The notes beneath the pieces were generated by a model, which had not been told where the DNA came from, searched no databases, and saw only the letters and a program-made list of their open reading frames with translations. From Plantibacter sp. ME-Dv--P-122b (GTDB taxonomy: Bacteria; Actinomycetota; Actinomycetes; Actinomycetales; Microbacteriaceae), in NCBI RefSeq assembly GCF_030209375.1, contig NZ_JARVSC010000005.1:1-64000 (forward strand): DNA of 64,000 nucleotides, in the 5' to 3' direction. Below, piece after piece: positions 4,705 through 29,711 of the stretch; the stretch's first letter is position 1; the number at the start of each line of letters is the position of its first letter. Made by a program: the position numbers and the translations under genes.

Positions 4705-6398
4705 TCGAGGAGATCGAGATCCGCGACCTCGGCGTCATCGCGTCCGGGACGCTCCCACTCGGACCCGGTTTCACCGCCGTGACGGGTGAGACCGGCGCAG
4801 GCAAGACGATGGTGGTCACCGCCCTCGGGCTGCTGCTCGGTCAGCGGTCGGACAGCGGGGTCGTGCGAGCGGGCCAGAAGCAGACGAGCGTCCAGGGACG
4901 TTGGTTGGTGCCGGGCGACGGCGCGGTCGCGGAGCGCGTCCGCGAGGCCGGGGGAGACCTCGATCCCGCGGGTGATGCGGCAGAGCTGTTGCTCGGTCGG
5001 ATCGTGACCGCCGAGGGCCGCGGTCGAGCGATCGTCGGTGGCCGGACGGCGCCCATCGGGATCCTCTCCGAACTCGGCGAGCAGCTCGTCGTCGTGCACG
5101 GGCAATCCGACCAGATCCGCCTGCGGGCCGCGCCGGCCCAGCGGGACGCCCTGGACCGCTTCGCCGGTGAACCGCTCCAACTGGCCCTCGGCGACTACCA
5201 GCGGCGCTACACGGAGCTCCTGGAGCTGCGGACGGAACTCGAGACCCTGACGAGCGAACGCGACACGCGGCTCCTGGAGGCCGAGCAGCTGCGCGTCGCG
5301 CTGGCCGAGATCGAGCAGGCCGACCCGCAGCCAGGCGAGGACGCCGAGCTGGCCGAGCGCGCCGATCGACTGACCAACCTCGAGGAGCTCCGTCTCTCGG
5401 CGGCCGGCGCCCGAGAACTCGTCTCGGCCGAGGCGGGCGAGGAGAGCGACGTCGTCGGGCTGCTCGAAGGCGCGCGGCGGCAGCTCGACCGGGCCTCGGT
5501 GCACGATCCCGCCCTCGGCGCGATCGCCGCGAGTGTCGCCAATGCGAGCTACCTGGCCGCGGAGATCGCCGCCGAGCTCTCGAGCTACCTCGCCGGACTC
5601 GACGAGGACGGCGCTCGCGAACTCGAGGTCGTCCAGGAGCGTCGCGCCACCCTCGCGACGCTCGCCAGGAAGTACGGCCCGACGCCCGAGGACGTCCTGC
5701 ACCTGCTCGAGACGGGCAGCACGCGCCTGATGGAACTCGACGGCGACTCCGACCGCATCACCCAGCTCGAGGGCGACGTCGAACGACTCTCCGGGGAGGT
5801 CGACGCCGCTGCCGCGACGTTGAGCGCCGTCCGGGTCGAAGCCGCCGCTCGACTCGGCGCAGCCGCGAGCGCGGAACTGCGCTCGCTCGCCATGGCCGAG
5901 GCTGAGCTGGTCGTCGAGGTGTCCGATCGCGACGACCTCACGCTGCACGGCAAGGACGTGATCGCCTTCCTCCTCCGGCCGCACGTGGGTGCCGAGCCCC
6001 GACCGCTCGGCAAGGGCGCCTCGGGTGGAGAGCTGTCGCGCGTGATGCTCGCCCTCGAGGTCGTCATCGCCGGTGCCGACCCCGTGCCCACCTTCGTGTT
6101 CGACGAGGTCGACGCCGGCGTCGGCGGAGCCGCGGCGATCGAGATCGGCCGTCGCCTCGCGGCCCTCGCCGAGCGCTCGCAGGTGATCGTCGTCACCCAC
6201 CTCGCGCAGGTCGCGGCCTTCGCTAACAACCACCTGAGCGTGGTCAAGGGCGGAGACGGTTCGGTGACCGCGTCGAGCGTGCGCCAGCTCGTCGGCGCCG
6301 AGCGGGAGGCGGAGATGGCGCGGCTGCTCTCCGGGCTGGCAGAGTCCGACAGCGGCCTCGCCCACGCCCGCGAACTGCTCGCCCTCGCAGCCTCCTGA
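4701..6398 (+). CDS. recN: DNA repair protein RecN
   Basis: The protein has 565 residues, normal for this SMC-like ATPase of double-strand break repair. Walker A is TGETGAGKT at about residues 29-37. A central coiled-coil region runs from about 165 to 380. The ABC signature is KGASGGELSRVMLALE and Walker B is FVFDEVDAGVGG. The N-terminal phenylalanine-to-leucine variation (IRDLGVIASGTL) is usual for the family. It is translationally coupled to nadK and is followed by the pyrG promoter. Confidence 0.95.
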   Translation: MIEEIEIRDLGVIASGTLPLGPGFTAVTGETGAGKTMVVTALGLLLGQRSDSGVVRAGQKQTSVQGRWLVPGDGAVAERVREAGGDLDPAGDAAELLLGRIVTAEGRGRAIVGGRTAPIGILSELGEQLVVVHGQSDQIRLRAAPAQRDALDRFAGEPLQLALGDYQRRYTELLELRTELETLTSERDTRLLEAEQLRVALAEIEQADPQPGEDAELAERADRLTNLEELRLSAAGARELVSAEAGEESDVVGLLEGARRQLDRASVHDPALGAIAASVANASYLAAEIAAELSSYLAGLDEDGARELEVVQERRATLATLARKYGPTPEDVLHLLETGSTRLMELDGDSDRITQLEGDVERLSGEVDAAAATLSAVRVEAAARLGAAASAELRSLAMAEAELVVEVSDRDDLTLHGKDVIAFLLRPHVGAEPRPLGKGASGGELSRVMLALEVVIAGADPVPTFVFDEVDAGVGGAAAIEIGRRLAALAERSQVIVVTHLAQVAAFANNHLSVVKGGDGSVTASSVRQLVGAEREAEMARLLSGLAESDSGLAHARELLALAAS

Positions 6399-6443
6399 CG
6401 ACGCGACCGCGAAGGAAGCGACACATGAACCCGAACTGGATGG

Positions 6444-8810
<2,367 letters not shown>

Positions 8811-14839: not shown

Positions 14840-16334
14840 CGAGCAGTTCGACGGAGGCCCCGACGACCTCGCGGACCGCCTCCAGGACATGGACGAGGAG
14901 CTCGCGACCCAGCGGGCCGCGTCCCTCCGCTCCGGCCTGGCCGACTACGACCTCGAGGGCGACGACCTCGACATCCTCGACGGCGCGACGGAGGACCCGG
15001 ACGAGATCCGCTTCCTGCCGGCGCTGCCCGTCGTGGCGATCGTCGGTCGCCCGAACGTGGGTAAGTCCGCACTGGTGAACCGCATCCTCGGCCGTCGTGA
15101 GGCCGTCGTGGAGGACACCCCCGGTGTCACCCGCGACCGCGTCAACTACAAGGCCGAGTGGAACGACCGTCGCTTCACGGTCGTCGACACCGGTGGGTGG
15201 GAACCCGACGCCAAGGGGATCGACGCGTCCGTCGCTGCCCAGGCCGAGGTCGCCATCGACCTCTCCGACGTCGTGATCTTCGTGGTCGACGCCATGGTCG
15301 GTGCCACGGCGACCGACGAGCAGGTCGTCAAGCTGCTCCGCAAGACTGGCCGTCCGGTCTTCCTCGTCGCCAACAAGGTCGACGACGCCCGTCAGGAGCC
15401 GGAGGCCGCAGCGCTCTGGAACCTCGGTCTCGGCGAGCCCCACCCGGTCTCCGCGATCCACGGCCGTGGTGTCGCCGACCTCCTCGACAAGATCCTCAAG
15501 GTCCTCCCGCAGGTCTCGGCCGTCGCGAAGGACGAGTTCGGCGGCCCCCGCCGCGTCGCGATCCTCGGTCGCCCGAACGTCGGCAAGTCCAGCCTGCTCA
15601 ACAAGACCGCGGGCGAGGAGCGCGTCGTCGTCAACGACCTCGCCGGGACCACCCGCGACCCGGTCGACGAGCAGATCGAGCTCGGTGGCAAGATCTGGCG
15701 GTTCGTCGACACCGCCGGCATCCGTCGCCGGGTGCACCTGTCGCAGGGTGCCGACTTCTACGCGTCGCTCCGCACGAGCACGGCGCTCGAGAAGGCCGAG
15801 GTGGCCGTCGTCCTCATCGACGTCACCGAGGTGATCAGCGAGCAGGATGTGCGGATCATCGACCTCGTGCTCGAGAGCGGTCGCGCCCTCGTGCTCGCCT
15901 TCAACAAGTGGGACCAGCTCGACGACGAACGCCGGAAGTACCTGGAGCGCGAGATCGAGCAGGACCTCTCGCACGTGTCGTGGGCGCCGCGCGTCAACAT
16001 CTCCGCGCGCACGGGCCGCCACCTGGAGCGCCTCGTCCCGGCGCTCGAGGTCGCACTCGAGTCGTGGGACATGCGCATCCCCACGGGCAAGTTCAACGCC
16101 TTCCTCGCCGAGCTCACGGCGGCGCACCCGCACCCGCTGCGTGGTGGCAAGCAGCCCCGTATCCTGTTCGGCACGCAGGCCGCGAGCCGCCCGCCGACCT
16201 TCGTGCTCTTCACGACCGGCTTCCTCGACCCCGGCTACCGTCGCTACGTGGTCCGTCGCCTGCGCGAGATCTGGGGCTTCGAGGGCACGCCGATCAACGT
16301 CAACATGCGTGTCCGCGAGAAGCGCCAGCGCTGA
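14826..16334 (+). CDS. der: Ribosome assembly GTPase Der (EngA)
   Basis: The protein has 502 residues with an acidic N-terminal extension of about 65 residues before two tandem G domains and a KH-like domain. G1 motifs are [15 protein letters not shown] and [15 protein letters not shown], with [14 protein letters not shown] and [14 protein letters not shown] switch motifs. NKVD and NKWD supply guanine specificity. Der acts in 50S subunit maturation. It is the last gene of the conserved operon. Confidence 0.96.
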
Positions 16335-16361
16335 TCCGCGCCGCTCGTCCCTCAGACGGTG

Positions 16362-20588: not shown

Positions 20589-20662
<74 letters not shown>

Positions 20663-20667
20663 CAGAA

Positions 20668-20810: not shown

Positions 20811-21140
20811 CTAATAGGTGCCTATGAGGTGGACTAACATCCAGGCGGGCCTATGCTTTGGCCCCTTCCGGGAGAGTCTGAGCGGCTGTTCACCGTAGGT
20901 CATGGGTTGTGGTTCGTCGCGGCGGTCTGCATTCCTTCTGGTCGGTGCTGCGGAGAGGGCCTGATTGGCCCGTCTGGCGGCTTCGATGAGGTGTCGGCGG
21001 TCCGGCGTGCAGGTAGAGCCGTATATGGTCTCGCGCGACTGGTGTAGGAGGTTCTTTTGGCGCACGGGGAGGCAGGTGCCGGCGGTCGGCCATCCAGGTT
21101 GCTCCAGTGCGACCGAGCCCCTGGAGGGTGAGATTGCCAC
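20811..21140 (-). pseudogene. Possible decayed tyrosine integrase C-terminus
   Basis: A minus-strand frame contains LLHQSRETIYG followed by TPDRRHLIEAARRANQAL. This loosely resembles the end of tyrosine integrases, where a GHxSxxxT...Y box is followed by a ...PDrlreAAr... helix. The catalytic Arg and the HxLRH box are not recognisable, and the expected upstream domains are missing or frame-shifted. Its place beside attL with the 3' end towards the tRNA is typical for island integrases. The match is weak and could be chance. No other gene is convincing in 20715-21385. Confidence 0.22.
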
Positions 21141-21385
21141 AGCTGTTTGCTGCGAGGTCGTCCCAGCGGGTGGCGTCGCAGACCGTCGTTGAGGTGAGGA
21201 TGCTGCCGCGCGGCCCCGCAGGAGCGGGTAGCAGGGCTCATTCTCGGCGGTGCGCGATCGGCCCTCTGTGACCGCGATTCGCTAGGCGTTGGGGCCTCAG
21301 CTAATGGGCCAGCCATAGCGGCAGGCGCAGGACGTTCTGTACGACACGCGGTTGGAAATCGAACGCGAATTACTGCTTACGGGTG

Positions 21386-21398
21386 TAGAATTGGCATA
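21386..21398 (+). promoter_or_regulatory. Leaderless promoter of the island operon
   Basis: TAGAAT at 21386-21391 lies 6 nt before ATG 21398, so transcription would start at or near the A of the start codon. No ribosome binding site precedes the ATG. This is the only clear promoter-like element ahead of the eight-element run that ends at 29509. Confidence 0.5.
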
Positions 21399-22198
21399 TG
21401 AGCGAACGAGACGACCTGGTAGCTGCGCTGGATAGTGCTGGTGTGCTCGCGGGTATCCGCTGGGCCTACCTGTCAGCCTCAGACCGTGTGTTGGAGGACT
21501 ACTCAGAGGCTGCGGGCCACGACGCGACTTGGGTCGGCGTTACTCGGTTCACTCTCTTCCGCGACCGCCTCGATCGAGTGTTCTCCTGCCGCCGGTACGC
21601 TGTCGCCGAAGGCGCGGACGGAGAGTTGAGCCTTGACATCCTCCACGCTGAACTGAATGAGCGTGACGTCAAGACTCTCCCGAAGCTCAATCCTGAGCTC
21701 GTTGTGCGCGCTGATCTCAGCGGCAGCCCCGGCTGGTCACACGAGGGAACTCGTTGGCTCCTCGTGTCGTCTGAGTTCGGCAAGCTCGACGAAGTTCCCT
21801 GGCCGCAGAAGAGCACCACCAAGCAGCGTGTCGCTCAACAGCCGACCAACGAACCGGACGAGCCGACATTGTTCGACTATCTCACAGGCGACGAGCGGGC
21901 CGGTCTGGCAACTCTTATGACCGGCTCCAAACTCGATCTGCACACCTTGGTCATCGGGCACTCCCTGGATGCCGAGCACGGAGGCCGCGAAATGGCTATC
22001 GGCCAGCCGCGTCTAAACTCTGGTGGTGGCTCCGCCTGGTATTGGAAGCACGATCTGCTGCAAGCGCCTCCGTCGGAAGGCGGACGCCTGCGTCCGAGCG
22101 CGCCTGCACCCGTCGGCCCCGACACGACGCCCGACGCCCCGGTCAAGCTCCGGCGCCCGGCGGCCGAGCAGCCCACCCGTGGACAGGCAGGGCTTTGA
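21398..22198 (+). CDS. Unknown protein, first gene of the island operon
   Basis: The protein has 266 residues and no recognised domain. It is mixed alpha/beta through about residue 215 (for example WVGVTRFTLFRDRLDRVFSC and IGHSLDAEHGGREMAIGQPR), then a proline-rich tail of about 45 residues. The start codon ATG at 21398 appears leaderless. It overlaps the XRE/ImmA gene by 4 nt, so the two products probably act together; it may be a substrate or partner of that metallopeptidase. This is inference from gene order. Confidence 0.7.
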   Translation: MSERDDLVAALDSAGVLAGIRWAYLSASDRVLEDYSEAAGHDATWVGVTRFTLFRDRLDRVFSCRRYAVAEGADGELSLDILHAELNERDVKTLPKLNPELVVRADLSGSPGWSHEGTRWLLVSSEFGKLDEVPWPQKSTTKQRVAQQPTNEPDEPTLFDYLTGDERAGLATLMTGSKLDLHTLVIGHSLDAEHGGREMAIGQPRLNSGGGSAWYWKHDLLQAPPSEGGRLRPSAPAPVGPDTTPDAPVKLRRPAAEQPTRGQAGL

Positions 22199-23394
22199 GC
22201 GACAGCGACCGCACAGCGACCGCAGCTGCGTTCTTCGACGGTGCACGCCTGACCATGGCACGCCACCTGGCAGGGTTGCGCAAGAACGATCTTGCGGCGC
22301 TGATCAAGAAGAGTCCAACCGCGGTATCCGCATGGGAGACAGGCGCGAAGAAGCCGACTCCCTCCACCGTCGCGCAGCTCGCTCTCGGACTCTCGGTCGA
22401 TCCAGGGTTCTTCGCCGCACGCCCGAACGATGTCGCGAAGGCCAGCGCCCTCCCACACTTCCGATCACTGCGGTCAACGAGCCAACTCGCACGCGACCAA
22501 GCCTTCGCCTACGGTCAGATCGCCCTCGACATCGCCGAGTCGCTAGAGCGCCACGTTGAGCTACCGGATGTCAACCTACTGTCTCGACCCGTCGAGCTGG
22601 ACGACCTAGAGAACGACGGGCCCGAACAAGCCGCACAGGAGCTACGCGACGCATGGGAGCTCGGTGCCGGGCCAGCCGGACACCTGGTACGTGCCCTGGA
22701 GAACCACGGAGTCCTCGTCGTCTTCAGCCCGCACCAGACCGCCTCGGTAGACGCCTACTCATTCGATAGCCGCCTGCGCCCGGTAGTGGTCCTCAACCCC
22801 GTGAAGCGTGACTACTACCGCCAACGCTTCGACGTCGCCCACGAACTAGGTCATCTGATCATGCACAGCGACGCAGAACCCGGCGGACGAGCTGTAGAAG
22901 AGCAAGCTCACAGATTCGCCTCTGAGCTGCTGATGCCAGCATCCGAGATAACTGAGCTGTTGCCAACCGCAATGAACCGCGGCGCCTGGGTCACCCTCGC
23001 CAAGCTCAAGGAACAGTGGGGAGTGAGCATCCAAGCGCTTCTCTTCCGAGCACGCCGCCTCGGGCGGCTCGGTGACGTCTCCTACCGCAACGCGATGGTC
23101 ACCCTGTCAACACGAGGCTGGAGACGCAACGAACCCGGCCTTGTCACCGCCATTGAACAGCCATCCCTGCTGCCACGAGCGATCGAACTACTTGAGAATG
23201 AAGGCATCGAAGAACTCAGCCTCGTCGAGCAATGCCGCGTACCGGCCGAGCTCTTCCGCCTCGTTACAGCACGCACCCCTCAGGCCCCCGAACCGGATCA
23301 GGCCGACGTGGACCTTGCGACGTCCGAGATCAGGAAAGTCGTATCTCTGCTACCGCGACTGAGCGCGCGGGCCGAAAGCAAGAGTGATGCATAG
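22195..23394 (+). CDS. XRE helix-turn-helix regulator fused to ImmA/IrrE metallopeptidase
   Basis: The protein has 399 residues. TTG at 22195 overlaps the previous stop and is the best start; ATG 22255 is an alternative. Residues from about 20 to 75 are a Cro/CI-type helix-turn-helix (LAALIKKSPTAVSAWETGAK). The zinc peptidase motif HELGH is at 216-220 within FDVAHELGHLIMH, with a downstream acidic segment EEQAHRFASELLMP giving the third ligand. Such proteins cleave repressors after a signal, as ImmA does in ICEBs1 and IrrE in Deinococcus. It probably controls this operon. Confidence 0.87.
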   Translation: MSDSDRTATAAAFFDGARLTMARHLAGLRKNDLAALIKKSPTAVSAWETGAKKPTPSTVAQLALGLSVDPGFFAARPNDVAKASALPHFRSLRSTSQLARDQAFAYGQIALDIAESLERHVELPDVNLLSRPVELDDLENDGPEQAAQELRDAWELGAGPAGHLVRALENHGVLVVFSPHQTASVDAYSFDSRLRPVVVLNPVKRDYYRQRFDVAHELGHLIMHSDAEPGGRAVEEQAHRFASELLMPASEITELLPTAMNRGAWVTLAKLKEQWGVSIQALLFRARRLGRLGDVSYRNAMVTLSTRGWRRNEPGLVTAIEQPSLLPRAIELLENEGIEELSLVEQCRVPAELFRLVTARTPQAPEPDQADVDLATSEIRKVVSLLPRLSARAESKSDA

Positions 23395-23421
23395 ATTCCC
23401 ACCTCACCGAAGGAGAACCTC

Positions 23422-23661
23422 ATGACCGATCCGAACAAGCGCGTCGTCCAGCGCCGGGACGACGGAAACTGGGAAGTACGGAAGCCTGGCGCCGATCGCG
23501 CGAGCGCTGTCACTCCCACACAGACCGAGGGCATCAACCGCGCACGCGACATCCTCCGCAACGACGGCGGAGGCGAACTACAGGTGCGCTCGCTGGAGGG
23601 CACCATCCGAGAGCAGGACACGATCCCTCGCGGGAACGACCCTCGCTCGTCCAAGGGCTGA
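23422..23661 (+). CDS. DUF2188 family small protein
   Basis: The protein has 79 residues. The pattern RRDDGNWEVRKPGADRAS followed by T-x-x-E-x-x-x-x-A-R-x-I-L and a C-terminal GTIREQDT is that of DUF2188 proteins, short beta-rich domains often beside stress or mobile genes. AAGGAGAACCTC before ATG 23422 is a strong ribosome binding site. It stands 27 nt after the metallopeptidase gene and 15 nt before the SIR2 gene. The molecular role is unknown. Confidence 0.8.
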   Translation: MTDPNKRVVQRRDDGNWEVRKPGADRASAVTPTQTEGINRARDILRNDGGGELQVRSLEGTIREQDTIPRGNDPRSSKG

Positions 23662-23676
23662 GGGACTGGAAAAAGG

Positions 23677-24951
23677 ATGACGACGAACGACTCCCAGCGC
23701 TCAGTTGCGTTCTATAAGGGGAAGACCAACACGCTTGACGCGGAGTCATCCGAAACGATGGCCACTGTGCGTCGGGATATTGCGGACGCGCTCAACTCAA
23801 AGAATCTCGCTTTCCTGCTTGGGTCGGGGTGCTCATCGTTCCAACAAGATGGTCGTGAGCTCGGCATTCCCACCATGGGACCAATGGCTAAGAAGTTCAT
23901 GAACGCCACCACGGGCAAGCATCGAGTTACAGCCACCGATCGCCAGAGGCTGGAGTCGAGCCTGGGACTGAATCTCGATGACGAGAATTACCAAAACAAT
24001 CTCGAGCGCCTCTTGGAAGTATTGTTCGCTCAAGAACTTGCCCTACGGGCGAGCACGCGGCCGGCGATGCAAAAAGTGCACGCCGTCGTTCTGCGAGTCA
24101 TTAGCTCTGTCACTGCATATGTTCGTGCCGCCTGCACAGACGGCGAGTTTTCTCGCGGCGACGAGACCGTCCTCAGAACCTACATGCAGTTCTATCGTCG
24201 CCTGGCACAGAGGGACCGAGCGCTCCCACGCCCTTGGGTTTTCACAACGAACTACGACCTCTTCAACGAGACCGCAATGGATCGGCTAGGCATCCCGTAC
24301 ATCAACGGCTTCCTGGGGTCGATCGAGCGCCGCTTCAACCCGTCGGTGTTCAGGTACGCGCTCTCCGAGCAACTTGATATCAGCAATCGAAAATGGAGTT
24401 CCGTTGACAGTCTGATGTACTTCGCCAAGCTTCACGGATCGGTTAGTTGGGAGTCCCGCGGCGACGGATTGTTTCCTGTGGTGGAGACTGCGCCCTCTCT
24501 GATAGAGAGCGACCAATTGCTCATCTATCCCAGTCCGGCGAAACAGAACGCCAGCTTTGCCGCACCCTACTCAGACATGTTCCGTGAGTTCCAAACTCGA
24601 GTCGTCCGCGATCAGAGCGTCCTCGTCACCGTGGGATACAGCTTCGGCGATGAACATGTGAACAACATCATTTTCCAGGCACTCACGATCCCCACCTTCC
24701 GACTTGTTGCGTTCATCGACCCTTCAGTCAACGAGATGGTGACGAGGCTCAGAGACCTCGATGATCCGCGGATATGGATAGTCGGCACTGAGGACAGACA
24801 AGCCACCTGGAAGGCACACTACTTCGCTCCGCTCGTCGAGGACATATTGGCGACCGGCGGTTCCGACAACGCCGAGGAAGCAATCAACTCAGTCCTGACG
24901 AATCTTCTCGGGCGCGGGCACACGACTTCTGACAGCGGTGCGCGCCGTTGA
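23677..24951 (+). CDS. SIR2-like NADase, defence effector of a SIR2-HerA pair
   Basis: The protein has 424 residues. The SIR2 nucleotide-binding motif is LLGSGCSSF (48-55), followed by FTTNYDLFNE (about 189-198), KLHGSVSW with the catalytic histidine near 253, and VTVGYSFGDEHVNNIIF. Its context before a HerA ATPase defines the SIR2-HerA type of anti-phage module, in which the SIR2 part consumes NAD. It is a defence-type SIR2 rather than a Sir2/CobB deacylase, as the zinc-binding cysteine quartet is absent. Stop and HerA start overlap by 4 nt. Confidence 0.88.
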   Translation: MTTNDSQRSVAFYKGKTNTLDAESSETMATVRRDIADALNSKNLAFLLGSGCSSFQQDGRELGIPTMGPMAKKFMNATTGKHRVTATDRQRLESSLGLNLDDENYQNNLERLLEVLFAQELALRASTRPAMQKVHAVVLRVISSVTAYVRAACTDGEFSRGDETVLRTYMQFYRRLAQRDRALPRPWVFTTNYDLFNETAMDRLGIPYINGFLGSIERRFNPSVFRYALSEQLDISNRKWSSVDSLMYFAKLHGSVSWESRGDGLFPVVETAPSLIESDQLLIYPSPAKQNASFAAPYSDMFREFQTRVVRDQSVLVTVGYSFGDEHVNNIIFQALTIPTFRLVAFIDPSVNEMVTRLRDLDDPRIWIVGTEDRQATWKAHYFAPLVEDILATGGSDNAEEAINSVLTNLLGRGHTTSDSGARR

Positions 24952-26933
24952 GTTCCATCGAACGCCGACGCTCCCTCGGCAAGGTCATCGCAGTCAACGC
25001 CGAGAAGTTCACTGTAGAGCTGAACGCCGGCTCGGATAGCTTCACACTTGTCGGGTTCGATGCTCAACACTATGTCGCGCGAATCGGGTCATTTGTCCTG
25101 ATCCCGTTGCAGACCGAGCACGTCGTAGGCGAGGTAGTCGGTCTCCGCGAACGTGAGCTGTCAGCAAGCGAGCAACTCCAGTCAGAGCTTCAGGACACAC
25201 ACGCACTTCGAGCATTGAAGTTCCTAGATGTCGTCCCTATCGGTACTCTCTCCTTTCGCGCCGAGGATCGGTTCCGATTCGGCGTCTCAGTCTTTCCTGC
25301 ACTTTACACCGAAGTCCTGTATGCCGAATCGCAGGATCTAGATCGAATTTTTGACTCAACTAACGCGATTGAGGCCGACGAATCATCTGAGACTGAGCCA
25401 GTACCCACCCGTTTGCGTGCATTCAACATCGGTACATCTGTCGTCTTTGATGACTACGACGTGAAAGTAGCCGTAGACGAGTTTTTCGGCGGCCACGCAG
25501 CGATTCTCGGCAACACAGGAAGCGGAAAGTCCTGCACTGTCGCATCGGTAGTTCAATCTATCTTCACCAAGCACGATGCCCACGCTGCCGTCGGCGCGAC
25601 GTTCGTGTTCTTCGACACAAACGGTGAGTACAGGCAAGCTTTTACCGACTTGCCGAAGCCAATCAGAAGGCTCTATGCACTTGTTCCAGGGCGCGACGCC
25701 CAGGCACCGCCAGGCGCTGACAAGAGGGAGGAGGTCGTCGGGTTCCGGCTGCCTCATTGGTTCCTATCGCCGGAAGAGTGGGAACTACTACTCCGCGCTA
25801 GCGACCGAGCGCAGCGGCCGATCTTGAGAAATGCGCTAGGGCTGACGAGTTTGTTCGCGACGAACGACGCAACCCTCATACCGCTCAAGAACCATGTTCT
25901 TGCCTCCGCGATACTCGCCATCCTGGCCAGTTCTGAAAGCGCGACGGCGAGCGTCGGCCGAATTCAAGGACTGTTGCTCTCTTTCAGCACGCCGGAGCTC
26001 GACCGACGAACTGTGCACCCGCACCTTGCTATCAACTTCGGCGCCTTCATCAACCCCAATGGACTTCCCGACCTTCTGCGCCCACACATTCAAGATGCCG
26101 TCGTGCTCCCGGACTATAAGTACGCCCCATTCGAGTTTTCCCTGCTTGAGCAAGCACTCGATCTCGCCATCCTCTACGAGGAGGCGCATGGCAACCGACA
26201 CGTCCGCGACTACAGCTCATCAATGTTGACGCGATACAAATCGATTCGTGATCGCGCAGAGTTCGTATTCTTGCGGCCGGCTACAACCACTCTGGCTCCG
26301 CACGAGACTGACTCGAGGGTTTTCGTAGATAAGTGGCTCGGCCTCATCGAAGAGCAAACCAGTGGCGAACTACGGAAGCGCTCTCAAATCACCATCTTCG
26401 ACATGAACGAGGTTGAGGACGAAGTTGTCGAGATAGTCTCAGCCGTCGTGACTCGAATGATCTTCGAGCGGCTCCGACGCTCACACGCTCGGAACACCTT
26501 CCCAGTAAATCTCGTCCTTGAAGAGGCGCATCGCTACGTCGCCGAGCGCCCATCTGACTTTGCGATTGATGCAACCAAGATATTCGAACGAGTGGCAAAA
26601 GAGGGGAGGAAGTACGGTCTCTTCATTCTTCTCGCCTCGCAACGACCCAGCGAACTATCGCGGACCGTACTCTCTCAATGCTCTAACTTCGTCGTACACA
26701 GAATCCAGAACCCGGAAGACTTGCAGCACGTTCGACGTATGACGCCGTTCATCTCCGAATCCGTGCTGAGTCGACTTCCGTCTCTCCCGAAACAGCATGC
26801 CCTCATTTTCGGCAACTCCGTTAGCATCCCCACGACCTTCCGAGTGCGAGACGCATCACCCAAACCGAAGAGCGACGATTCACCAATCCGTCAGGTGTGG
26901 TTCACGAAACGTGATCACACCATCGAGATCTGA
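24948..26933 (+). CDS. HerA-type hexameric ATPase/translocase, partner of SIR2
   Basis: The protein has 661 residues. An N-terminal HAS-barrel-like beta region (about 10-70) precedes the ATPase core. Walker A is GNTGSGKS at 188-195, and Walker B is in NLVLEEAHRYV near 520-530, followed by LLASQRPSELSRTVLSQCSN, a typical HerA/FtsK sensor segment. TTG at 24948 overlaps the SIR2 stop, so translation is coupled. HerA partners assemble with the effector and gate or stimulate it. PRTase begins only 14 nt downstream. Confidence 0.88.
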   Translation: MSSIERRRSLGKVIAVNAEKFTVELNAGSDSFTLVGFDAQHYVARIGSFVLIPLQTEHVVGEVVGLRERELSASEQLQSELQDTHALRALKFLDVVPIGTLSFRAEDRFRFGVSVFPALYTEVLYAESQDLDRIFDSTNAIEADESSETEPVPTRLRAFNIGTSVVFDDYDVKVAVDEFFGGHAAILGNTGSGKSCTVASVVQSIFTKHDAHAAVGATFVFFDTNGEYRQAFTDLPKPIRRLYALVPGRDAQAPPGADKREEVVGFRLPHWFLSPEEWELLLRASDRAQRPILRNALGLTSLFATNDATLIPLKNHVLASAILAILASSESATASVGRIQGLLLSFSTPELDRRTVHPHLAINFGAFINPNGLPDLLRPHIQDAVVLPDYKYAPFEFSLLEQALDLAILYEEAHGNRHVRDYSSSMLTRYKSIRDRAEFVFLRPATTTLAPHETDSRVFVDKWLGLIEEQTSGELRKRSQITIFDMNEVEDEVVEIVSAVVTRMIFERLRRSHARNTFPVNLVLEEAHRYVAERPSDFAIDATKIFERVAKEGRKYGLFILLASQRPSELSRTVLSQCSNFVVHRIQNPEDLQHVRRMTPFISESVLSRLPSLPKQHALIFGNSVSIPTTFRVRDASPKPKSDDSPIRQVWFTKRDHTIEI

Positions 26934-26947
26934 TTCGGCAGTAACCA

Positions 26948-28189
26948 ATGGCTAGCACCTATCGAGCAGTTCGACCAAGTGAGACTCGGAGAGGTCAGGC
27001 ATGGTTAACAAATTTCTCTCCCGAAGATGAAGGTCCGGCCCGTCAGCTGCTTGATTCACTGCGTTTCGTATCGCTCAGCGACGTTCGGGCTGGACTACAA
27101 GTCCGGCTCCGCTCTCTCATTGCGCAAGGGAAGATCCAGGTCCCAGCGCTCCTGGTTTCCGCACTGTCCATTGAAGATCTCCGCCTCGACGAAGGCCAGA
27201 CCGCCCCTTCGGTGGCCTTCGAGAGTTTTCAGCTCGATGACCCGATCAACGTTGTGCCAGGCAGCGAAGGCTTCGTTGGTAACCTGATACGCGACCTCGT
27301 GTCGCCGGCCCTAGCTGGGACAGATGCACTACTAGCGCCATCTACGAAGTTGAATGAGCTTCGTGACAAGCGATGTCGGTCGATCGTGGTCATCACTGAT
27401 TACGCGGGCTCAGGGACACAACTCCGAAACTATGCAATGACGCTCGTCCGCCATCCGACGCTAAGGAGCTGGCGGTCATACGGCCTTCTCCGCATACACG
27501 CGCTCTCGTATGCCGGATCTTCCCAAGCGCTCGCTACGCTGCAGCGGGAAGATGGTCCCTTCGACGGGATATGGACTGTCGAAACAGCGCCCTCGTTTCA
27601 GGACGCGCCTTGGACTGCGAGCCAGCGTGATGCGATCGAGGAGATATGCGCCCGCTATGTACACAAGAAGGATCGGAAGAGAGCGCTCGGCTTCAAGGAA
27701 AGTGCGGGGCTCTTCGCAACGGATGCGAGTGTGCCCAACAACCTCCCGCTGATCCTGAGGCAGGCCCACTCCGGGTGGCATCCATTCTTCGAACGACGGA
27801 CTGTTCCCCCCGATTTGTTCATGGAGCTAGGAAGCTATGCGCCGGATGTGGTCTTCAAGGATGTCGCCACCCGCATCGGCCAGCCCAGGCTGTCAAGCAA
27901 TCTGGGCGTGAAGTACATGAGAAGTGCCACTGACGAGATGTTTCTCGTTTTGGCCTTGCTGCTCGATCGTTCTCGTTCTGATTCCGACCTTGCTCGGGAA
28001 CTCAGCAAACCGGTTGCGACTGTCGATTTGCTCCTGCGGGCTCTCCGCACGCTTGGACTGATCGATGACCAGCGCAACGTTACCTCGGCAGGTAAGAAGG
28101 AACTGACGACGGGCAAGCGGGCTCCTCGCCACGTCTCCACTGGCATCGAGGGCTCGGGCGCCCCGTACTATCCTGGGAGCATGAGATGA
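26948..28189 (+). CDS. Retron-associated PRTase-like effector with C-terminal winged helix
   Basis: The protein has 413 residues. A PRPP-loop-like motif lies in IVVITDYAGSGTQ near residues 145-157, the pattern of the PRTase-CE family found in bacterial conflict systems. Residues from about 325 to 390 (ELSKPVATVDLLLRALRTLG and neighbours) form a winged-helix domain ending before a short tail. It directly precedes a retron RNA and reverse transcriptase, which fits the retron classes whose effector is a PRTase-like protein. The substrate is unknown; a nucleotide or NAD-related base is plausible. Its stop codon lies in the a1 arm of the RNA. Confidence 0.82.
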   Translation: MASTYRAVRPSETRRGQAWLTNFSPEDEGPARQLLDSLRFVSLSDVRAGLQVRLRSLIAQGKIQVPALLVSALSIEDLRLDEGQTAPSVAFESFQLDDPINVVPGSEGFVGNLIRDLVSPALAGTDALLAPSTKLNELRDKRCRSIVVITDYAGSGTQLRNYAMTLVRHPTLRSWRSYGLLRIHALSYAGSSQALATLQREDGPFDGIWTVETAPSFQDAPWTASQRDAIEEICARYVHKKDRKRALGFKESAGLFATDASVPNNLPLILRQAHSGWHPFFERRTVPPDLFMELGSYAPDVVFKDVATRIGQPRLSSNLGVKYMRSATDEMFLVLALLLDRSRSDSDLARELSKPVATVDLLLRALRTLGLIDDQRNVTSAGKKELTTGKRAPRHVSTGIEGSGAPYYPGSMR

Positions 28190-28402
28190 GGGGGAGAACC
28201 AGTCTGCTTAGTGATGCAGCCGGCACGTTGTGCCGGCTCGTGGAGTCGACTGGCTCCAGGACGCGGCTGACCGCGTTCAACGGACGAGCTCAGGCTACGC
28301 GTGGTGGGGCAAACGCCACCTACCTACGGGGCCTGGGGAGGCGTTCGCCCCACCCTTCGGGACCGGGGGTCAAAGTAAGTGGCTGACTCTTCCCCTCATC
28401 TC
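28183..28402 (+). ncRNA. Retron non-coding RNA (msr-msd)
   Basis: The ends form an a1/a2 duplex: 28183-28204 pairs with 28381-28402 at 20 of 22 positions (18 Watson-Crick, 2 G-U), including 15 in a row. Inside are msr-type hairpins at 28218-28238 (9-bp stem AGCCGGCAC, 3-nt loop), 28241-28258 (5 bp) and 28261-28276 (6 bp, ACGCGG/CCGCGT). A long msd-type stem pairs 28303-28317 with 28340-28354 at 14 of 15 positions and has a 22-nt loop. The order a1, msr hairpins, msd stem, a2, reverse transcriptase is that of characterised retrons. The priming guanosine cannot be placed with certainty. Confidence 0.82.
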
Positions 28403-29509
28403 TACATCGCACAGGGCCTCGCGCAGGGACATGCCACGGAGGTTGTCTCCCGTGCGAGCATTGTTCGCTCTCGATTGCTTGCACATGGTGTCCCGCCAAT
28501 CCTGAGCTTGCGACATCTGGCCCAACTGACCGGAGTTTCCTATCGCTATCTCCGTGAAATAGTCGGAAGGGTTAGGGACCCGTACCTCGATATCAACCGG
28601 CGGAAGCGAGACGGCAGCATCCGCGAGATATCGAGCCCCGAGCCCGTGCTTATGGACGTGCAGCGCTGGCTCCTCCACAACGTGTTCTCATCGGTCCCTA
28701 TGCACCCCGCCAGTTACGCCTATCAGCGTGACCGTTCAATTGTTCAATGCGCTGAGCAACATGTGGGAGCGCGATGGTTGGTGAAGCTCGACCTTCATGA
28801 CTTCTTCGGAAGCATCCAAGAGAAACGCGTATTCGATATTCTTCTGCGGCTGGGATATTCGAAGCTCATGAGCTTGGAAATAGCCCGAATTTGCACCCGA
28901 CTTCGCAACCCCAGGTACGAGGGGTATCAGAACTTCTGGGCGTACAACGCGATCCCGCCCTATGTGGTGGGTAGCCAAGGCGTGCTACCGCAGGGTGCGC
29001 CAACCAGCGGTGCCCTAGCCAATACTGTGGCGAGCAATCTTGACGCGAAACTCAATGATTTGGCCGCGTCAAGAGGGCTGGGCTACACAAGGTACTCGGA
29101 CGATCTCACCTTTTCAGCTGGCCCAGATTACGATCGAAAGCAAGCAACGGCTCTCATCGCCCAGGTCCGAAACATCGTGCGGGACCAAAATTTTGTGCTG
29201 CACGAGAAGAAGACACACGTGGTCCCTCCAGGCGCAAGGACTGTCGTTCTCGGCCTTCTGGTGGACTCGCAGCGGGTCCGGCTTCTACCCGAGTACAAGC
29301 GCCGCCTTCAGGTTCACGTTCGCGGCGTGGGGAAGTTCGGCCTGGTAGAGCATGCTTCTCACCGCGGGTTTGAGTCGGTTCTGTCGTTCGTGAACCACGT
29401 CGACGGCTTGATTGCGTTTGCTGCAGGTGTGGAACATGAGTATGCACAACACATGCGGCGAGCTTGGAATGATGCCTTGGCCAGGAGCGGCTACCCACTG
29501 GAGGTCTGA
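28379..29509 (+). CDS. Retron reverse transcriptase
   Basis: The protein has 376 residues. Catalytic motifs are LVKLDLHDFFGSI with Asp138, LPQGAPTSGALAN from residue 203 and YTRYSDDLTF with YSDD at 239-242, followed by NFVLHEKKTHV. Two retron hallmarks are present in altered form: the NAxxH motif reads CAEQH, and the VTG motif reads VLG in VVLGLLVD. GTG at 28379 directly follows an in-frame TAA and has GGGGGT upstream; no later start before the conserved region is convincing. The first eight codons coincide with the a2 arm of the RNA. Confidence 0.9.
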   Translation: MADSSPHLYIAQGLAQGHATEVVSRASIVRSRLLAHGVPPILSLRHLAQLTGVSYRYLREIVGRVRDPYLDINRRKRDGSIREISSPEPVLMDVQRWLLHNVFSSVPMHPASYAYQRDRSIVQCAEQHVGARWLVKLDLHDFFGSIQEKRVFDILLRLGYSKLMSLEIARICTRLRNPRYEGYQNFWAYNAIPPYVVGSQGVLPQGAPTSGALANTVASNLDAKLNDLAASRGLGYTRYSDDLTFSAGPDYDRKQATALIAQVRNIVRDQNFVLHEKKTHVVPPGARTVVLGLLVDSQRVRLLPEYKRRLQVHVRGVGKFGLVEHASHRGFESVLSFVNHVDGLIAFAAGVEHEYAQHMRRAWNDALARSGYPLEV

Positions 29510-29664
29510 GCTGGCTCGCTCAGGGGACTATGCATGCGGTGGCATCGGCAAGTTGACCAATCAAGTGACGAACAATCTGCAGGCCGTGCAAAATGTGACG
29601 AGCAGAGCGCGCTTGTGAACGGAAAACACCAGGTCAGGTGGGTTATGAACCCTCTTCCTGGCAC
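29510..29664. other. Island right-end spacer without a gene
   Basis: Nothing coding is supported between the reverse transcriptase stop and the right repeat. The stretch holds no clear promoter or inverted repeat. Confidence 0.5.
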
Positions 29665-29704
29665 CTGGGGATCAAGGGGTCGCAGGTTCAGATCCTGTCA
29701 GCCC
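29665..29704 (+). repeat. attR-like direct repeat
   Basis: This 40-bp copy of the tRNA-Pro 3' half differs at two positions from 20621-20660. The 5' half of the tRNA is absent, so it is an attachment-site remnant and not a gene. Confidence 0.88.
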
Positions 29705-29711
29705 TACCATG

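Follow-up and report, generated by a model that had tools for sequence, protein, structure and literature searches.

The stretch of DNA analysed here, hereafter the window, comprises 64,000 nt of Plantibacter sp. ME-Dv--P-122b (contig NZ_JARVSC010000005.1, positions 1 to 64,000). Between positions 21398 and 29509 of its plus strand, seven genes and one structured RNA follow each other head to tail, as confirmed by a check of the open reading frame (ORF) list (Table 1). An earlier note on this DNA had described the run as eight plus-strand elements separated by very short distances, and both ORFs and coordinates are as it claimed: 4-nt overlaps are found at 22195-22198 and 24948-24951, and the gaps measure 27, 15 and 14 nt. 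The run consists of three defence modules, namely a RosmerTA toxin-antitoxin (TA) module with a DUF2188 gene (RmrT-RmrA-DUF2188), a SIR2-HerA pair, and a retron composed of a phosphoribosyltransferase (PRTase) effector, a non-coding RNA (ncRNA) and a reverse transcriptase (RT). The note had identified the SIR2-HerA pair and the PRTase-RNA-RT retron as known anti-phage modules, an identification substantiated by profile matches for the proteins and by folding and covariation for the ncRNA. GC content is 70% in the flanks, 63-67% in RosmerTA and DUF2188, and 56-59% in SIR2-HerA and the retron, with the drop located at the DUF2188/SIR2 boundary. Because of this difference between the RosmerTA-DUF2188 part and the rest of the run, we suggest that at least two sources were joined.

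Table 1. Features of the defence run and its island in the window.
Feature	Position	Strand	Evidence
tRNA-Pro (GGG), likely island integration target	20589..20663	+	ARAGORN, Rfam tRNA
Tyrosine integrase remnant, broken, residues 289-395 of 396, two frames	20907..21228	-	tblastn with the intact M. ginsengisoli integrase
Putative RosmerTA promoter/operator element TACTG-N7-GTGTA	21371..21390	+	By-eye comparison of RmrT loci
RmrT-like putative toxin, 266 aa, no Pfam domain	21398..22198	+	PADLOC RmrT E 2e-5; position before RmrA
RmrA antitoxin, XRE helix-turn-helix (HTH) + ImmA/M78 peptidase, TTG start	22195..23394	+	PADLOC RmrA E 1.4e-107; Pfam Peptidase_M78, HTH_3
DUF2188 small protein	23422..23661	+	Pfam; PADLOC PDC-S16
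SIR2 NADase-type protein, TTNYD + LHG motifs	23677..24951	+	PADLOC SIR2 E 2.7e-185; 8yhx E 5.9e-39
HerA ATPase, TTG start	24948..26933	+	PADLOC HerA E 5.9e-263; GNTGSGKS
Retron III-A effector, PRTase-CE + winged HTH	26948..28189	+	Pfam PF24390, PF24409; PADLOC PRTase_III-A E 4.8e-82
Retron msr-msd ncRNA	28185..28400 (about)	+	Folding z, covariation, conservation
Retron RT type III-A, GTG start, YSDD	28379..29509	+	PADLOC RT_III-A E 6.4e-147; alignment of ten RTs
tRNA-Pro 3'-end repeat, distal attachment (att)-like site	29665..29707	+	Identity to tRNA-Pro of the window and of M. ginsengisoli

The complete arrangement recurs in a second species. When the same eight-element order was searched for elsewhere, as the earlier note had proposed, it was found in one further genome, that of Microbacterium ginsengisoli DSM 18659 (locus L024), which carries all seven genes in the same order with 87-96% protein identity and intergenic distances of -4, -8, 13, -4, 13 and 189 nt. 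Hence, SIR2-HerA and a retron do co-occur in another genome, in 1 of the best 80 of 554 SIR2-HerA genome loci; L024 is the sole locus among these with the full set. The block shared by the two genomes spans 21341-29707 (8.4 kb) and is 89.3% identical at the nucleotide level, versus 71-74% for the syntenic core DNA to the left of the island on the same contig. Its ends are sharp, since identity is 41% just before and 43% just after the block, and its bounds coincide with the promoter and the tRNA-derived repeat. From this contrast with the flank and from the sharp ends, we infer that the block moved horizontally between bacteria, as one unit. Moreover, the ratio of non-synonymous to synonymous divergence (dN/dS) between the two copies ranges from 0.04 to 0.12 for each of the seven genes, all of which are under purifying selection.

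The setting of the run is that of an island at a tRNA gene. The repeat at its distal end is 95% identical to the tRNA-Pro of the window over 29665-29704; over 29665-29707, it is 91% identical to the tRNA of M. ginsengisoli. In M. ginsengisoli, the tRNA-Pro at the island is accompanied by an intact 396-aa integrase. The integrase piece left in the window is C-terminal and lies between the tRNA-Pro and the block. Altogether, these features mark the run as the putative cargo of an island at tRNA-Pro whose integrase has decayed. In addition, the 5' part of tRNA-Pro is repeated over 42 nt just ahead of the tRNA gene in M. ginsengisoli (L115, 7131-7172).

Assignment of the first gene to RmrT is based mainly on its linkage to RmrA, because the profile match is weak (E 2e-5). 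An RmrT homologue immediately precedes an RmrA relative in all four plasmid loci and in all five further loci of the window's family, and RmrT-RmrA occurs without SIR2-HerA or a retron in five family loci and four plasmid loci. A fold of RmrT predicted by AlphaFold from two sequences was discarded as unusable (mean predicted local distance difference test score 31). In one of the five family loci (L286, 4814-5768), the RmrA match next to a standalone RmrT relative is divided among three frames; this antitoxin gene may be broken or misassembled. Genome G1127, from a third genus (L284, 3687 bp), has an RmrT-RmrA pair 93-96% identical to that of the window, the match running from window position 21246 on. 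As for RmrA itself, the earlier note had regarded it as a shared metallopeptidase-type repressor. The XRE/ImmA protein is indeed present, but it is better explained as part of a third module, in which it is the antitoxin (E 1.4e-107). Finally, the DUF2188 protein is probably a RosmerTA partner, because its gene adjoins RmrTA on an R. ruber plasmid (one of four plasmids); this plasmid carries RmrT-RmrA-DUF2188 without the other modules, and its DUF2188 protein is 75% identical to that of the window.

The SIR2 protein contains the motifs TTNYD and LHG, which align with the solved SIR2 8yhx (E 5.9e-39) and which we take to hold the catalytic Asn and His of the NADase. In HerA, the motif GNTGSGKS, presumably the Walker A motif, is invariant in eight sequences. 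SIR2-HerA systems deplete NAD upon phage activation. We compared 86 SIR2-HerA loci, namely the best 80 of 554 genome loci confirmed in a scan of species genomes and six plasmid loci. SIR2 precedes HerA in all 80 of these best genome loci. The gene just upstream of the pair encodes an AbiEii toxin in at least 15 of the 86 loci (14 by BLAST clustering with L015, which is annotated as AbiEii, and L039 by Pfam), and in L015, the only such locus checked for it, an AbiEi-type antitoxin stands before AbiEii. Upstream counts are lower bounds; upstream ORFs shorter than 90 aa were dropped before clustering. TA genes thus lead SIR2-HerA runs in two unrelated forms, RosmerTA and AbiE. On a FastTree phylogeny of HerA, linkage to AbiE arises or disappears at least six times, gains not being told apart from losses, and long branches in the tree call for caution. 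Other neighbours are an RNase_T exonuclease downstream of HerA (30/86 loci), a type III restriction subunit upstream of SIR2 in at least five of the 86 (L061, L063, L070, L077 and L078; Pfam on L061 and L063) and an MmeI-type enzyme upstream in at least two (L093 and L100; Pfam on L093). The presence of SIR2-HerA beside AbiE TA genes, restriction-modification (R-M) genes and an exonuclease suggests that its regulation may come from the operon that it has joined. A run of AbiEii, SIR2, HerA and the RNase_T exonuclease recurs in L013, L015, L016, L051, L060, L062, L067 and L072-L075. An HsdR-like gene follows HerA in L091 and L094 (Pfam on L091), and L094 has an HsdS-like domain upstream.

The retron contains a structured ncRNA. 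The region 28160-28400 folds with z = -6.0, and none of 200 shuffles is as stable. In an alignment of six retrons with 49 predicted pairs, in which the window and L024 are nearly alike, two-sided changes occur in 20 of the 49 pairs versus 9.0 in shuffles, and 90.4% of the cells pair versus 78.2% in shuffles; none of 500 shuffles reached either value. Controls with the structure slid along the alignment gave 39-46% pairing and two-sided changes in 5-11 pairs. Given its extent of about 28185-28400, the ncRNA reaches into the two genes that flank it, its outer arms (a1/a2) falling within the last PRTase codons and the first RT codons. Compared with M. ginsengisoli, the stretch 28183-28378 shows 96.9% nucleotide identity, the highest of the stretches compared. 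No Rfam family matched the retron ncRNA at the gathering score. The RT carries YSDD at the catalytic YxDD position and its best PADLOC profile is RT_III-A (489 bits, E 6.4e-147), the class being assigned by profile score. In retrons, damage to the complex of RT and multicopy single-stranded DNA (msDNA) frees the effector. In another family member (L149), a III-A retron at 5780-8393 and a tRNA-Pro(GGG) gene at 16286-16360 lie about 8 kb apart, which makes this tRNA a possible hotspot for retrons. The family search also returned, at 252 bits or less, a second RT that is distinct from III-A by score, in 47 further genomes out of 398 (L123-L147 among the matches).

Each module kind usually stands alone elsewhere, and the arrangement of these known parts appears to be new. 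No retron, RmrT or DUF2188 match was found in the other 79 of the best 80 of 554 SIR2-HerA genome loci, for which at least 3 kb was available on both sides in 60 and at least 5 kb in 54. L076 carries an RmrA relative at a distance of about 5.5 kb, on the opposite strand, and weak RmrA matches were obtained in L063 and L057; L014 and L083, which make up the rest of the window's HerA clade, are without the other modules. III-A retrons scoring at least 399 bits were detected in 5 of 398 genomes of the window's family, the window's included, and the other four have no SIR2-HerA or RosmerTA in the surrounding 20 kb. On plasmids, all six III-A retron loci examined (6 of 20 RT-matched records) are without SIR2-HerA and RosmerTA, and all six SIR2-HerA loci (the top 6 of 258 records, 62 of them with at least 80% cover) likewise stand apart from the other modules. 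None of 121 viral loci combines SIR2-HerA and a retron, with SIR2 present at 27 of 42 HerA loci and a PRTase at 2 of 79 RT loci. No relative turned up when viral contigs were scanned with PRTase, RmrA and RT, each as a single protein, a tblastn search of phages with the PRTase yielded no match, and a megablast of the island against plasmids gave hits to the tRNA region and the DNA around it only. Within its own genus, the cassette is found in one of seven genomes, that of the window. Among 396 genomes sampled from the phylum, a PRTase protein match was restricted to the window's genome, and PRTase profile matches occurred in four genomes, the window's included. For two of the profile matches, G136 and G257, tblastn over 20 kb yielded neither an RT nor a PRTase; G136, G257 and G196 were not used further. 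Of 396 genomes sampled from the order, two have a close HerA, again counting the window's. Among the matches listed in literature searches, neither titles nor the openings of abstracts pointed to the joint RosmerTA/SIR2-HerA/retron order.

A candidate control element precedes the run. Comparing six RmrT loci by eye, we picked out the motif TACTG-N6/7-GTRTA just before RmrT, with no mismatch in four loci, one in L024 and two in L153. The window has a single exact copy of the N7 form and two sites with at most one mismatch, versus 0.38 expected. In a held-out test on six RmrT loci, the full motif was exact in two (L284 and L285), and TACTG alone could be read at a similar position in every one of the six. 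The element at about 21371 is probably part of the RosmerTA promoter. The promoter that the earlier note had placed at 21386 was rejected as a sigma-70 promoter for want of a consensus match, a scan returning 0 sites versus 2.3 expected in shuffles. Between 20600 and 30300, terminator-like sites are about as frequent as expected by chance (8 versus 7.2 in shuffles).

We consider it reasonably probable that the run is a mobile three-module defence cassette at tRNA-Pro, led by the RosmerTA promoter, whose modules act separately. One transcript would cover all modules, since the promoter at about 21371 would read into the three of them. RmrA would repress its own promoter and may thereby control SIR2-HerA and the retron as well. 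The modules themselves probably act independently, each being an abortive-infection device with its own trigger: loss or cleavage of RmrA would free RmrT, phage activation of SIR2-HerA would lead to NAD depletion, and damage to the RT-msDNA complex would free the PRTase effector. If there is indeed one transcript, the cassette would represent a compact and testable layered suicide defence under a TA leader, moving as one block.

Several observations weigh against this interpretation. In the other four of the six held-out loci, the full leader element is not above shuffled sequence. The rpoB gene is 87% identical between the two species at the nucleotide level, and its synonymous divergence (dS) of 0.38 falls within the range of the island (0.23-0.69); the case for transfer therefore rests on the left flank at 71-74%, not on every core gene. 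In addition, divergence between the two copies is uneven. Over 21398-29506, synonymous divergence changes from mostly 0.4-0.8 to mostly 0.2-0.5 near the SIR2/HerA junction, and the proportion of synonymous differences (pS) is 0.39 to the left of HerA and 0.25 from HerA on, a difference matched in none of 5000 permutations. Because it is not uniform, the two copies have either recombined or been put together stepwise. Furthermore, the full set is known from two genomes, which share the tRNA locus and probably belong to a single family, so that one origin would explain everything; with two copies only, our claim is kept modest. Lastly, no downstream module was detected elsewhere in the G1127 assembly, whose contig ends inside RmrA, so that this may reflect a gap or a real absence.

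The same run might instead work as one coupled system; the earlier note had suggested a single regulated system or a two-layer response. RmrA would then be a master switch that represses the shared promoter; its phage-triggered cleavage would free RmrT and induce SIR2-HerA and the retron at the same time. The outcome would be a graded response, with NAD depletion and PRTase toxicity as its end point. That the whole order recurs as one block in M. ginsengisoli, with its short gaps kept, agrees with this proposal, as does the resemblance of the leader element to that of standalone RosmerTA loci. AbiEii genes before SIR2-HerA, with an AbiEi-type regulator before AbiEii in the locus checked, offer a parallel, and RptR provides a precedent as the first-gene repressor of a multi-system island, at least in the available text of its description (PMC12255303). 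Nevertheless, an obligate union is not supported, as all three module kinds occur apart elsewhere, and the step in GC content points to later joining. Altogether, we regard a coupled system as unlikely. A broader and equally doubtful idea is that self-regulated TA pairs serve as leader switches of composite abortive-infection operons, RmrA in the cassette and the AbiEi-type protein in AbiE-SIR2-HerA-exonuclease runs each repressing a single transcript; a phage disarming the antitoxin would free the first toxin while raising NAD depletion and retron activity.

Less probable still is an ordinary defence island, in which unrelated cargo, unlinked in function and transcription, has piled up between the tRNA and the att site and the short gaps reflect compact integration. 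The tRNA-Pro target, the att-like repeat and the integrase remnants would all be expected of such an island, and the III-A retron found near tRNA-Pro in another family member fits it as well. Against it, with modules spaced by 13-15 nt, any independent promoter would have to lie within coding DNA, and a second species has kept the arrangement. That RosmerTA is an addiction module which retains SIR2-HerA and the retron as cargo now that the integrase is dead, and no controlling or defending layer, is very improbable: the truncated integrase of the window speaks for it, as do the unrelated TA genes, of at least two forms, that head SIR2-HerA runs, but RosmerTA is reported in the available text of PMC10440598 to be antiphage in its own right. 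We therefore retain the mobile cassette of separately acting modules as our preferred explanation.

The cassette can be compared with several known systems. In E. coli, RptR is the repressor encoded by the first gene of a seven-ORF island in which DarTG2 lies inside a type I R-M system, according to the available text of PMC12255303. In both loci, a regulator gene heads a run of several defence systems; the regulator of the RptR island is a dedicated 9-kDa repressor whose binding has been shown in that text, whereas here it is a putative TA antitoxin, recognised from sequence alone. RosmerTA systems have ImmA-type antitoxins, as far as the available text of PMC10440598 goes. The window shares with them an XRE-ImmA antitoxin and an adjacent upstream toxin, but its RmrT match is weak, a DUF2188 gene comes next and two more defence modules follow in the run. 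As in the SIR2-HerA system (Nezha; Gao19), SIR2 stands directly upstream of HerA with a 4-nt overlap, and TTNYD, LHG and GNTGSGKS are present; unlike there, HerA lies between a TA module and a retron, and it is at most 57% identical to the relatives found, M. ginsengisoli excepted. III-A retrons are described, in the available text of PMC12548924, as PRTase/winged HTH effectors with an RT and an ncRNA. The window has the PRTase-CE and winged HTH effector, the ncRNA and the RT in that order, together with the outer a1/a2 helix, but its PRTase gene begins 14 nt after herA, whereas the four other family members have no SIR2-HerA or RosmerTA nearby. The single paper found to cover SIR2-HerA, RosmerTA and a retron together, on S. 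thermophilus, lists them, in its available text, as separate systems. The cassette of the window is real, intact as judged by its sequence and presumably mobile, and it joins known parts in a rare arrangement.

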